A stretch of 30,357 bases of DNA from a virus: positions 1 to 30,357 of IMG/VR virus record IMGVR_UViG_3300022150_000083, one strand, 5' to 3'. Shown one piece after another: positions 22,575 to 29,268 of this stretch (position 1 is the first letter of the stretch; every line of letters starts with the position of its first letter). Below the pieces are notes generated by a model, which saw only the letters and a list, made by a program, of their open reading frames with translations, did no database searches and was not told where the DNA came from. The position numbers were made by a program, and so were the translations under genes.

Positions 22575-22752
22575 CGACACACCCCTCTCGTAATGCCAAC
22601 GCGAGCAGATATTCATTGCGACGATCCAACGCGGCCATAATGCCCAGAACGGCATCGGTCGCCGCGAAGGTTTGGTCCTCGGTCCAATTCGGGTTGCTCA
22701 GGATCAGATCATGCTCGGCGATCCCGGCGCGAACTATTCTAAACAGGTGCAT
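22561..22752 (-). CDS. Small unknown early protein
   Basis: 63-residue acidic, helical protein (MHLFRIVRAGIAEHDLILSN). It overlaps gemA by 14 bases and the zinc-ribbon gene by 14 bases, which supports it as a member of the operon. I recognise no family and see no cysteine motif or membrane segment. Confidence 0.65.
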   Translation of the reverse strand: MHLFRIVRAGIAEHDLILSNPNWTEDQTFAATDAVLGIMAALDRRNEYLLALALREGCVDAMP

Positions 22753-23248
22753 CGGACCGGCCCTGCTGGTTATCGTGCATTTGCGCAGCCCAATTCTCTA
22801 AACCCATGATCACCTTGCTGGCCTGTGTGCGGCTCAGAAACTTGGTCGAGCTGACCTTTGCCGTGCGCTTTACAAACGACCGCAGGCGCTCATCCTCAAG
22901 GCCATCCTGCCACCCAATCGCGCGGCCCACAGCGGCGATCTTGGCCCACTGCGCCGATGTCGGGCGCTCCTCGCCATTGGCGGTCGGGCCTTTGCCACCG
23001 GGTGTGCGGTCAGGCAACAAGCCCTCCTTGCGCATCATCTTGATCAGATCGATGCGCTCAGCTGTCGTCAGCTTGCCCGCTGATCGCTTGCCGGTGTGAC
23101 GCTCCAACCACGCCTCGTAAGCGTCACGACCATCTGCACCTTTCGACACATCGCCGAACAAGGCCTTCGCACCGATGTGGATAGTCGCAAGGTCGGCATT
23201 CCGACGCGCGGGGGATGTCTTGGGGGTGCTCATGGTCCGGTCTTTCAT
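22739..23248 (-). CDS. gemA: GemA (Mu gp16) family regulatory protein
   Basis: 169-residue GemA/DUF1018 protein. In Mu, GemA is reported to affect host gene expression and DNA topology. Hallmarks are 'RRNADLATIHIGAKALFGD', 'RDAYEAWLERHTGKRSAGKL', 'PTSAQWAKIAAVGRAIGWQD', and 'FVKRTAKVSSTKFLSRTQAS'. The start is uncertain: ATG 23248 or ATG 23233 (MSTPKTSP); neither has a ribosome site. The former would be met by a TAATG stop/start if the preceding gene were read in the -1 frame past its C tract. It is a marker of Mu-type early regions. Confidence 0.92.
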   Translation of the reverse strand: MKDRTMSTPKTSPARRNADLATIHIGAKALFGDVSKGADGRDAYEAWLERHTGKRSAGKLTTAERIDLIKMMRKEGLLPDRTPGGKGPTANGEERPTSAQWAKIAAVGRAIGWQDGLEDERLRSFVKRTAKVSSTKFLSRTQASKVIMGLENWAAQMHDNQQGRSDAPV

Positions 23249-23275
23249 TAGTGGATTGTTAGGGGGCTTGGATCG

Positions 23276-23533
23276 TTAAAATTTACTTTGATCCAAGGGG
23301 GGGGGGGGTAGCGGCAGATCGGCTTGATCCAGCATCACGAACGCCTCACGGATATGATCAGGCAGCGTCGGCATCTCGACCAGAACCTCACCACCCTTTA
23401 CAAAGATCAGGCGCATATCCGCGCCACACCACGACCGGCCCAGCGTGGCGCGGTAGGCCATGCGCCGCACATGCTTTCGGGTCAGTCCAGCGACCGCCGC
23501 GACCTCAGCAATGGTCACCTGACGGACGGTCAT
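23276..23533 (-). CDS. Stand-alone Mu-type DNA-binding domain protein
   Basis: 85 residues. 'VTIAEVAAVAGLTRKHVRRM' is a helix-turn-helix, followed by a beta-wing region 'RLIFVKGGEVLVEMPTLPDH' and 'IREAFVMLD'. The order (helix-turn-helix, Gly-Gly wing, 'LP...R.A') is like the N-terminal DNA-binding domain of MuA and the Mu repressor, here as a whole protein. It could bind operator or end sites as a regulator. The gene ends in a proline run encoded by 12 consecutive Cs. The ATG overlaps the preceding stop (ATGA). Confidence 0.78.
   Translation of the reverse strand: MTVRQVTIAEVAAVAGLTRKHVRRMAYRATLGRSWCGADMRLIFVKGGEVLVEMPTLPDHIREAFVMLDQADLPLPPPPLDQSKF
23297..23308 (-). repeat. 12-base C tract (G tract on plus strand)
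   Basis: Twelve consecutive Cs on the coding strand encode four prolines near the end of the DNA-binding gene. Tracts this long are prone to replication, transcription and sequencing slippage. Losing one C replaces the last 6 residues by about 16, ending in a TAA that overlaps the ATG at 23248 as TAATG. Confidence 0.9.
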
Positions 23534-25960: not shown

Positions 25961-26682
25961 GACCGGCCCGCCATCCATGCGGCGGCGGTTTCGACCACGC
26001 GTTCGTCGATCTTATCGATGTCCTCGTTTCTCATCAGACGGGCACAGGCATCAGCCAGCTCAAGCGCCGACCGCCACTCGCCACGGCTCAGGATGCGGAA
26101 CCGCTTTGCCGTGGCCTTGGTGACCTGACCGAACCGTGGTGCGATCACATAAGCGGACAGCTCAGCGTCATCAGTGATCGCCCGCATTAACACCTTCTTG
26201 GCACCGATGCGCTGGCGCAGCTGGGTCAGATAAACCCGCACACGCGCCTCGACCAACCGCTTGGCCAGAATGTCTGTGCCCGCCAGAACGATACCCGCTC
26301 CGCCGATGTCCGACAGGCCGCGCAGCTTCTCCAGCGTTCCCCATTTCAGTTGGTTTGCCTCATCGATCAGGATCAGCTTGCCAGCGCACTCAGCCTTGAT
26401 CTTGCGAAACAGCGTGGGTGCGGTGCCGGTCACGTCCAGGCTGGCACCTTGGGCGTTCAGCCCCAGCGCGATCTCCTCCAGCAGGGCCTTGTCACCCATA
26501 TCCATCCAGCACTCGACGCGCACACCGGCCAGCTCTTCGGCCAACCAGGTAGTCAGTGTCGATTTGCCGGTGCCGGGGTCGCCGGTGATCTGGCCGATCC
26601 GGCTGTATTTGCGCGCGCCTAGGACGGTCTTGCACATTGCAAACGCCTCGTCGGCCTGCGCCGTTTTAATAAAGCCTTCCAT
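25957..26682 (-). CDS. B: MuB-like transposition ATPase
   Basis: 241-residue AAA+ ATPase with Walker A 'GDPGTGKST' at residues 34-42, Walker B 'LILIDEA' at 103-109, and a sensor-like 'IVLAGTDIL' strand. In Mu, MuB coats target DNA in an ATP-dependent way and delivers it to the MuA transpososome. Mu's own MuB (312 residues) has an N-terminal helix-turn-helix domain of about 60 residues that is absent here. The ATG overlaps the transposase stop by one base (TGATG), so the two are coupled. Confidence 0.93.
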   Translation of the reverse strand: MEGFIKTAQADEAFAMCKTVLGARKYSRIGQITGDPGTGKSTLTTWLAEELAGVRVECWMDMGDKALLEEIALGLNAQGASLDVTGTAPTLFRKIKAECAGKLILIDEANQLKWGTLEKLRGLSDIGGAGIVLAGTDILAKRLVEARVRVYLTQLRQRIGAKKVLMRAITDDAELSAYVIAPRFGQVTKATAKRFRILSRGEWRSALELADACARLMRNEDIDKIDERVVETAAAWMAGRS

Positions 26683-28964
26683 CAGGCATCCTCCTCATCA
26701 TCATCTGCGAACTTGAACGCGGCCACGACGGCGTTCGGGCCGGTTTTCCACTGGTTTGGCGGGGCTTTGGGTTTGTTTTCCTCTGCCTCGCGCAAAAGCG
26801 CCTTGCGCGCCTCGCCTTGCATGCGGGCCATGCGGTCAATGATCCCGGCATCGATGACCGCCGCGACGGGCACGTCTGGCGCATCGGGCATGTGGGCGAT
26901 GTGGCGTTCGGTCTCATCGGTCAGGCTCAGCAACGCGACGTGGCGGCGCTTCTCGGCGATTGATCGACGGAACGCTTTGCCACGGCGATTGACCTCATGC
27001 GCACCCGCACTGTCGAGGACACCGTAGGTCTGCTCGGGGAAGGCTTGGCAGATCAGCTCACCATCGGCGAAACAGAACACGAACTCGGGGTTGAACGCGG
27101 GCACCCGCAAGGTGATCTTGCTGTCGTATCCCAACAGCTCGTCGGCGTAATAATAGATCTTCTCGCCACGGCGCGGGGTAAAGCTGACACGCCCGCGATC
27201 CGGCACCCGATCGATCTCCTCGGCAAAGGCCAGCGCCAGCACCTCGGGGCGCGACAGCGTAGTTTTGCCCCATCCCTGATCAATAAAACCGCTCATTGCC
27301 TCGTTCGGGCTTTTGCCCTTCAACCGGCCATGCTGGGGGCGCTTGTGATACCACTCCAGCGCCTTGCCAGCGGTCTCAAGAAACGCCTGCGCATCACCCT
27401 TGAACGCAATCGGGTCTTTACCCTTGGCGTGGGTTTTCTTGTTCATGCGCTCGCCAGCGGTCCAGCCGCGGATCGTCGCGAAGAACACTTGCTCGATGTT
27501 ACCGAACGCGCCCTCGATACCGGGCTTGCCCTTGGCGTTGTAGGGCATTGACCGCACGATGGCCTCGCGACCGTGCATCACGCGCTTGTTCACCTCTGGA
27601 TCGCCTTCCAGATCGAATACCTTGAGGCCACCCTTGGAAATCTTCGACAGCTCGGTATAGCCGCTGATCATCTCATCCCATGAATACTCGGCACCATTAT
27701 CCAGATACAGCAGCTCAGGAAGGCCCCATTCATCGACCATCGCCTCAAAACTCTGGGCGACGTGCTCGCGGCGGATGCCCTCACCGGGCTCGCACAGAAC
27801 AAACGTCATATGGATTTCATTGGTGGCCACGTCATACCAGGCGATGGCCTTGGGATAGACGGTGGTGCCGTCCTCGCGCTTCATCATGACATCGACGGGG
27901 TGCACGTCACCCACGACAACCTGGCGCGGCAGCAGGGTGGAATAATCGCGGCGGATCGACGGCATGTAATAGTCGGAAAATACCGCGTTGTCCTTGTCCT
28001 TGATCGCCAAAAGCTTGTAGGCGCGCTCGCGCTCGACAAGGCGTCGACTGACGCAACAGACGCCAAATTGGGTGTGGTCCTTGGTGGTGTCGCCGGATCG
28101 GCCCAGCTCCAGCGCATCAAACGCGACCACGTTCAAATCGCGGCTCATCTCGATCAGCTTGGTGGTGGACTTCTCGGTAATGGCGCGCCAGCCACGCTCG
28201 CCCGCGCCCCAAAGCGACCGTATATATTTGGTCAGATCATGGTTCACGCGGGTATGGGTGTCCGCGTCGATATGCGCTTGGAAAAACGCATCCCATGCGC
28301 GGCTGACTTTCTTGCGCTTGGCCCCGACATCAGTGCGCGTTTTGCGCACCACGCCACTCAGGCCCTCATTCTCGATGGCCCTGACCCAATTATACAGGGT
28401 CTGGACGGTGACTGCCTTGCGCTTGCCATTGGGGAAACGCCGCACGGTATTCGCAATGTCCATCAGTGCGGCGCCGCGCTCAGCCGATCCCTTGGGATAC
28501 GCCAACGCAGGCCGGATCACGTCCATGCGCCATTGCCCGATTGAAAGGGATCGCTGGTGTTTTACGTCAGGCTGAAACCGTTGCTCGGGCACCAGCACTG
28601 TCTTGTCAGTAACCGGGTCACGCTTCTCGTGCAGCACAATGCCGCGCGCCAGATACCACGCCTCGCGTAGATCGGCCGGCAGGCTATCTACATGAACCTG
28701 AGGTGCCTTGCCGCCAGCGCCACCGCGACCGATATCCACCAACTTTACCAACAGGTCACAACCGCGCCATTTTCGCGATTTGAGGTTCTTGCTTACCGCC
28801 TGTTGACTGACGCCAGCAAGAGCCGAAAGAACGTCCGAACCGAGCCACTTTTCACGGTTGTTCAATGGTTGTGCAATTGGTTGTTCAATAGCCATCCTCG
28901 CGCCGATTGAACAACTGCCGCTCCTAGTCGGGCTATCTACAAAGCCCTCCCCCAACTTACCCAT
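26682..28964 (-). CDS. A: MuA-like DDE transposase
   Basis: 760-residue transposase (Mu A is 663). Residues about 37-100 are a Mu-type winged-helix DNA-binding domain ('WLGSDVLSALAGVSQQAVSK'). A second helix-turn-helix region reads 'AVTVQTLYNWVRAIENEGLS'. The RNase-H-fold core has Asp353 ('VVVGDVHPVDV'), Asp422 ('LLYLDNGAEYS') and Glu484 ('KPGIEGAFGNIEQVF'), the DDE triad. The ATG at 28964 (MGKLGEGF) is chosen because GGGAG lies upstream and it overlaps the previous gene by 8 bases; an ATG at 28895 (MAIEQPIAQP) is the alternative. It integrates and replicates the phage by transposition. Confidence 0.95.
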   Translation of the reverse strand: MGKLGEGFVDSPTRSGSCSIGARMAIEQPIAQPLNNREKWLGSDVLSALAGVSQQAVSKNLKSRKWRGCDLLVKLVDIGRGGAGGKAPQVHVDSLPADLREAWYLARGIVLHEKRDPVTDKTVLVPEQRFQPDVKHQRSLSIGQWRMDVIRPALAYPKGSAERGAALMDIANTVRRFPNGKRKAVTVQTLYNWVRAIENEGLSGVVRKTRTDVGAKRKKVSRAWDAFFQAHIDADTHTRVNHDLTKYIRSLWGAGERGWRAITEKSTTKLIEMSRDLNVVAFDALELGRSGDTTKDHTQFGVCCVSRRLVERERAYKLLAIKDKDNAVFSDYYMPSIRRDYSTLLPRQVVVGDVHPVDVMMKREDGTTVYPKAIAWYDVATNEIHMTFVLCEPGEGIRREHVAQSFEAMVDEWGLPELLYLDNGAEYSWDEMISGYTELSKISKGGLKVFDLEGDPEVNKRVMHGREAIVRSMPYNAKGKPGIEGAFGNIEQVFFATIRGWTAGERMNKKTHAKGKDPIAFKGDAQAFLETAGKALEWYHKRPQHGRLKGKSPNEAMSGFIDQGWGKTTLSRPEVLALAFAEEIDRVPDRGRVSFTPRRGEKIYYYADELLGYDSKITLRVPAFNPEFVFCFADGELICQAFPEQTYGVLDSAGAHEVNRRGKAFRRSIAEKRRHVALLSLTDETERHIAHMPDAPDVPVAAVIDAGIIDRMARMQGEARKALLREAEENKPKAPPNQWKTGPNAVVAAFKFADDDEEDA
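28858..28914. repeat. Array of TTGTTCAAT motifs in the transposase gene start
   Basis: TTGTTCAAT occurs at 28858-28866 and 28881-28889, a one-base variant TTGTGCAAT at 28869-28877, and the inverted form ATTGAACAA at 28906-28914. The direct copies start 11 and 12 bases apart, near one helical turn. In the coding frame the copies fall in different phases (IEQP, IAQP, then LNN), so they are repeats of DNA, not of peptide. Confidence 0.8.
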
Positions 28965-29268
28965 CACGACGCTCTCCCAGCATAAAGCCTTTGACCGCCG
29001 CCGCGACGACCTCATCAACCAGCGCCACCATTTCGTCGCGCACGGCCTTGATGTTGCCATCCTCTGCCAAATCCTCGATGGCCTCACCCAGCGCACAGGC
29101 CAGCGCCTTGGCGGCTTGGTCACTACTGGGCATGAACCCCATCTCGGATTTGAAATGGCTATCCAGCTTGACGCGGTAGGCCGCACCGACCAGGCGCAGC
29201 ACCTCGGGGTGCAGATCGGCCACCTGCGGATGGACGGTCTTGGGGATCAGGCGCAATTCAAACGTCAT
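28957..29268 (-). CDS. Unknown early protein before the transposase
   Basis: 103 residues, MTFELRLIPKTVHPQVADLH, mainly helical and acidic ('DLAEDGNIKAVRDEMVALVD'). The ATG at 29268 has GGAG 9 bases upstream; an ATG at 29286 lies right after the previous stop without a site. It overlaps the transposase by 8 bases. Family not recognised; possibly a regulator or modulator of transposase because of the coupling. Confidence 0.75.
   Translation of the reverse strand: MTFELRLIPKTVHPQVADLHPEVLRLVGAAYRVKLDSHFKSEMGFMPSSDQAAKALACALGEAIEDLAEDGNIKAVRDEMVALVDEVVAAAVKGFMLGERRDG

Follow-up and report, generated by a model that had tools for sequence, protein, structure and literature searches.

A variable C-tract as a candidate phase-variable site for the C-terminus of a predicted DNA-binding regulator in Mu-like phages of Rhodobacteraceae

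Phase variation driven by repeats has been described chiefly for the surface structures and DNA methylases of bacteria adapted to a host. In Neisseria meningitidis, repeats at the 3' ends of genes such as NMB1998 and NMB0039 can switch the C-termini of the encoded proteins (PMC5084427). For the Mu repressor, control is considered to act via a C-terminal ClpX-recognition motif (PMC10584840), and the Listeria phages PSA, A118, and A500 use +1 ribosomal frameshifting at CCC (PMC5009743). The locus described here, a C-tract within a small gene upstream of gemA, is similar to the Neisseria class in that a repeat near the gene end would move a C-terminal peptide in or out of frame, with a functional protein still possible. 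What sets it apart is its setting: the carrier is a transposable phage of Rhodobacteraceae, the gene belongs to the early operon and encodes a small DNA-binding protein, and its stop codon lies beside the next gene; the switching, moreover, is proposed from sequence comparison. As with the Mu repressor, C-terminal residues may set the fate of a DNA-binding regulator of similar fold, but the ClpX control works by exposure of a motif, not by a repeat. The likeness to the Listeria phages is that proline CCC codons near the end of a phage gene would give an alternative C-terminus; those sites are fixed, short, and found in structural genes, whereas the C-tract is long, variable, and allows three possible frames. 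No description of a tract of this kind in Mu-like phages of Rhodobacteraceae was found in the open-access literature.

The window, i.e., the whole stretch of DNA analyzed, spans an entire virus record of 30,357 bases, and its minus strand carries an early operon of the Mu-like type, whose genes are ordered as follows: MuA-type transposase, MuB-type ATPase, small genes, DUF3164, HU-like protein, one small gene, the winged-HTH gene under study, and gemA. The hallmarks of Mu-like transposable phages were all found, namely the MuA-type transposase (phrog_310, E 9.6e-48), the MuB-type ATPase (phrog_296, E 2.6e-31), and a Pfam GemA match. The transposase (26682-29186, minus strand) matches the PHROG transposase family and gave no tblastn match at 1e-10 among 50,697 phage records; going by such searches, this transposable phage group is hardly represented among sequenced phages. 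The family consists of Mu-like viruses of marine bacteria, and the phage is a transposable phage of Rhodobacteraceae. Searches of phage and plasmid records with the winged-HTH protein returned no relatives, about 390 genomes of the host family and order gave one new relative only, and the 62 genomes of the genus of G003 gave none. A search for the DNA pattern of domain end plus C run recovered only the same family and one chance match (L037), and when GemA served as the query, the other phages recovered had different genes upstream of gemA and lacked a tract at that place. In one distant gemA-bearing phage, the protein encoded two genes upstream ends in ...DWFQMELPLVPLEEQFREGRP, which resembles the domain end ELPLP, without a tract (L063:1200-1295). 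The sample analyzed comprised 17 distinct sequences including the window, with relatives taken from IMG/VR and from bacterial genomes, some of which represent the same phage; L004/L012 and L005/L014 are identical in the region, and each pair was counted once.

In its current reading, the winged-HTH gene (23276..23533, minus strand), recognized from its relatives and its predicted fold, encodes 85 residues with the short ending LDQSKF. Residues 1-74 (23312..23533, minus strand) form the conserved domain, which ends in ...IREAFVMLDQADLP and appears related to the DNA-binding domain of MuA and the Mu repressor. The predicted model, built for the L026 form, had a mean pLDDT of 82, with about 90 for the domain and 54-64 for the tail. 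When compared with the PDB by Foldseek, the first-ranked match was 1tns, the MuA DNA-binding domain (prob 0.96, E 0.09), and 1qpm, the Mu repressor DNA-binding domain, stood further down the match list; the VIA Z values were 6.2 and 5.1, respectively, although a Z of that size alone can reflect a common arrangement. By fold, the predicted winged helix stands closest to the corresponding domains of MuA and the Mu repressor. Moreover, hhalign aligned the protein with the N-terminus of the phage's own MuA (Prob 52.7, E 1.4e-4), a weak match that is in register and shares the motif LP...REA, and a 763-aa ORF in G003, which lies 4.7 kb upstream and is probably MuA, contained another weak match (E 8.5e-4). 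Pfam gave only weak HTH matches, none above the family cut-off, and a sequence search of the PDB returned nothing useful. Unlike MuA, with which it shares the predicted fold and this weak profile similarity, the phage protein stands alone, has 85-98 residues, is encoded a little upstream of gemA, and lacks the transposase catalytic part.

The original prediction was that this gene runs through 12 Cs whose number sets its ending, and the arithmetic held. The tract is a G12 on the plus strand at 23297-23308 (C12 on the minus strand), it provides codons 76-79 of the 85-residue protein, directly past the conserved domain, and it encodes proline in every frame. With 12 Cs, the ORF 23533..23276 (minus strand) gives 85 aa ending in LPLPPPPLDQSKF, with the stop 27 nt ahead of the ATG at 23248. 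With 11 Cs, the protein has 94 aa and ends in WIKVNFNDPSPLTIH, and the stop forms TAATG with that ATG; 8 or 14 Cs give the same ending and the same TAATG with 93 or 95 aa, and 13 Cs lead to LGSK. As read from these frames, the number of Cs selects one of three protein endings and sets the position of the stop before gemA, and the window carries the conserved tail WIKVNFNDPSPLTIH and its stop in latent form (23248..23295, minus strand). The C12 is the sole homopolymer of at least 8 in the window. By chance, 30 kb should hold about 0.02 G or C runs of this length with independent bases and 0.003 under a first-order Markov model, so the repeat is longer than chance predicts for the window, as in phase-variable genes. 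Directly after the tract, two 8-bp arms, CTTGGATC ... GATCCAAG, make up a perfect inverted repeat around an A/T-rich loop of 15 nt (23267-23297, minus strand). This hairpin is not conserved in the relatives, where no conserved hairpin follows the tract, and it was thus dropped as a frameshift stimulator.

Among the 17 family members, 12 carry a C run at exactly the same place, directly 3' of the codons encoding ...DQxELPL (or LT, LF). Its length is 12 in the window and L002, 11 in L003 and L011, 10 in L009 and L026, 9 in L008 and L033, 8 in L004 and L015, and 7 in L010 and L016. A constant length of 12 was, therefore, not observed, as far as assemblies tell, each of which contributes one value. 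Close relatives differ as well: L002 and L003 have C12 and C11 at 99.1% identity over 2.1 kb, L003 and L004 are 3 Cs apart, and L010 and L011, with C7 and C11, have 108 substitutions over 3.5 kb but no indel other than that of the tract (94-98% identity, both from metagenome assemblies). Repeat number thus differs between close relatives, as it does in phase-variable genes, and the tract is a real hypervariable site whose length changes faster than the surrounding sequence. In addition, the seven genomes carrying relatives (26.7 Mb) contain no C run of 12 or more and only 12 runs of at least 10, whereas half of the tracts in the family (6 of 12) reach at least 10 Cs.

The tract is absent from five members, L005, L006, L013, L007, and L017, the first three of which are nested among tract carriers. 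To the question, raised with the original prediction, of whether relatives without the tract have the longer C-terminus, the answer was that all five encode only a short ending of at most 5 residues past the domain (LPGIA, I, LPGLQ), and the short form is thus presumably viable. In L005, L006, and L013, CCCAGGGATCGC replaces the tract, the protein ends in LPGIA, and the tail frame, in +1, runs on without a stop as far as the start of gemA.

We then turn to the codons downstream of the tract. One frame, which is the -1 frame in the window, encodes a 15-residue tail of the approximate form xNKLNLNDPSPxILH followed by a stop. In five lineages the tail has exactly 15 residues before the stop, i.e., WIKVNFNDPSPLTIH, WNELNWNAAPPPAIH, MSILILNDPSPPILH, VNTLFLNDPTALILH, and RNKLNLNESSPTQLH, and the carriers L008, L010, L015, and L033 have shorter or different tails. 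These five lineages, picked for equal tail length, were analyzed with a test in which shuffled alignment columns keep base changes and relatedness and destroy codons. Over the 15 codons, the observed protein similarity was reached by 1 of 4,000 shuffles (28 of 20,000 in a first run), and for codons 9-15 by none of 10,000. The end of the conserved domain, included as positive control, gave a similar result, and the two other frames showed no coding signal. When only the out-of-frame lineages (window, L002, and L016) were compared, they still showed a coding signal among themselves (59 of 10,000). The A/T-rich first half of the tail had no significant coding signal, leaving room for a nucleic-acid role there. 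Differences by codon position were 59, 56, and 68, a weak third-position excess, and every lineage except L017 retains the A/T-rich motif behind the tract, even where in-frame reading is impossible.

As for gemA, the original prediction placed its start at the ATG at 23248 and saw no ribosome site before it, and neither part agreed with the comparison. The relatives share a gemA start at the residue equivalent to 23233 (MSTPKTSP...), which is the probable start in the window as well (gemA 22739..23233, minus strand; Pfam GemA, E 1.1e-20), and the TAATG stop/start overlap was set aside for this reason. A weak Shine-Dalgarno-like purine stretch, GAAAG (23242..23246, minus strand), precedes this start, and purine stretches occur at about the same place in the relatives with an adjacent gemA. 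The gene does not lack a start signal of its own, and, since it has this ribosome-site-like sequence, translational coupling is possible and its strength a guess. In the window, the distance from stop to probable gemA start is 42 nt for the present stop and 14 nt for the alternative one. The conserved-tail stop lies 14-17 nt upstream of gemA in the window, L002-L004, L009-L011, L016, and L026, and the other frames stop mostly 34-60 nt upstream; a second long frame in L002-L004 ends 9 nt before gemA. Tract-less relatives have their stop 48-51 nt upstream, and L015 and L033 differ in this spacing. The L015 interval contains a hairpin-forming insert of about 50 bases (GGGAAGGCTTTTCCCTTCC...GGAAGCGAAAAGCCTTCCCC), and in L008 about 650 bases with another small gene separate the winged-HTH gene from gemA (L008:3265-3911).

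Collectively, a hypervariable homopolymer found across the family and a conserved alternative C-terminus give the locus, at the level of sequence, the build of a phase-variable gene with its repeat at the 3' end, as in Neisseria, though in an unusual place. The proposed switch stood in its shared tract position, in the length differences among near-identical phages, and in the conserved -1 tail, and it lost the TAATG overlap. The explanation that we favor, with moderate confidence, is that the C-tract is a contingency site of the transposable phage, at which replication slippage switches the C-terminus of the regulator, perhaps with coupling to gemA. DNA-replication slippage would add or remove Cs, and we infer that this takes place within one population. 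The tail is in frame in 3 of the 12 carriers, near the third that random phase would give, which fits this explanation. The conserved DNA-binding domain would be made at every tract length, since CCC is read as proline whatever the frame, and only the last residues would switch between the conserved 15-residue tail and two other, mostly short endings. In most relatives, the stop, 14-17 nt before gemA with the tail in frame, would otherwise lie about 34-60 nt before it, so that gemA translation may change by coupling and gemA output could be altered. The tail itself might affect the activity or stability of the regulator, the C-terminus being a plausible lever by analogy with the Mu repressor of the same fold. 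Against this explanation stand the five tract-less relatives with their short endings, three of them nested among carriers; the shortness of the tail, tested in lineages picked for equal tail length; the shorter or different tails of other carriers; the weak third-position excess; and the metagenomic origin of the L010/L011 pair. Were a phage to phase-vary an early-operon regulator, prophage behaviour would vary among the lysogens of a single clone. A wider reading, which we put forward only tentatively and hold to be doubtful, is that a temperate phage family diversifies the C-terminus of an early regulator at random through a slippable C-tract, giving mixed lysogens or particles and life-cycle bet-hedging, e.g., in induction or GemA levels. 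For annotation, the C-terminus recorded in this phage family follows from the tract length as assembled and should be read with caution.

An appreciably less likely explanation is that the run is neutral: function would end at LPLP, a proline-coding C run would drift freely, and the downstream codons would be remnants of an older, longer ending or be kept for a DNA or RNA reason, such as an A/T-rich stretch before gemA. The five tract-less relatives, presumably viable with at most 5 residues past the domain, fit this explanation, as do the A/T-rich motif that is kept out of frame and lacks a significant coding signal in its half of the tail, and the low confidence (54-64) with which the tail is modelled. 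It does not account for the clear coding signal of the second tail half in one frame only, nor for the whole-tail signal among lineages now out of frame; moreover, runs of 10-12 Cs are rare in the carrier genomes, and that diverse phages keep one at the same codon would have to be explained.

Recoding, in which a +1 shift of ribosomes at the CCC run, or slippage of RNA polymerase, would yield both forms at a set ratio from one DNA length, appears improbable. The Listeria phages PSA, A118, and A500 provide a precedent for +1 shifts at CCC (PMC5009743), one C fewer restores the tail frame in 6 of the 9 out-of-frame carriers, and the tail lies in the +1 frame in tract-less L005, L006, and L013 too. 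Yet L002, L008, and L033 need one C more, i.e., the opposite shift, and L009, L026, and L010 are in frame now and need none, so that no fixed shift serves all and neither a conserved direction nor a conserved site of a programmed +1 frameshift was found. The share in frame, 3 of 12, is close to the one third expected of random phase and, therefore, a poor fit to one fixed programmed shift. No conserved hairpin lies 3' of the tract, and the DNA length itself changes between relatives. The published cases of slippage by RNA polymerase involve runs of A or T (PMC6260861, PMC3711429), and RNA slippage is thus less likely than DNA slippage at C runs.

Finally, an assembly or sequencing error over a constant true length is very improbable and, as far as assemblies tell, largely refuted for the family, since, even if homopolymers are error-prone and L002 is also one G off its kin in a gemA G run, lengths of 7 to 12 were found in isolates and metagenomes and lie 3-4 apart between close relatives; the exact value of 12 in the window could be off by one. 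The G run of L002, near the gemA end (L002:3769), is one base different from that of L003 and L004 and alters the last GemA residues, and it represents either a sequencing error or a second slippery place.
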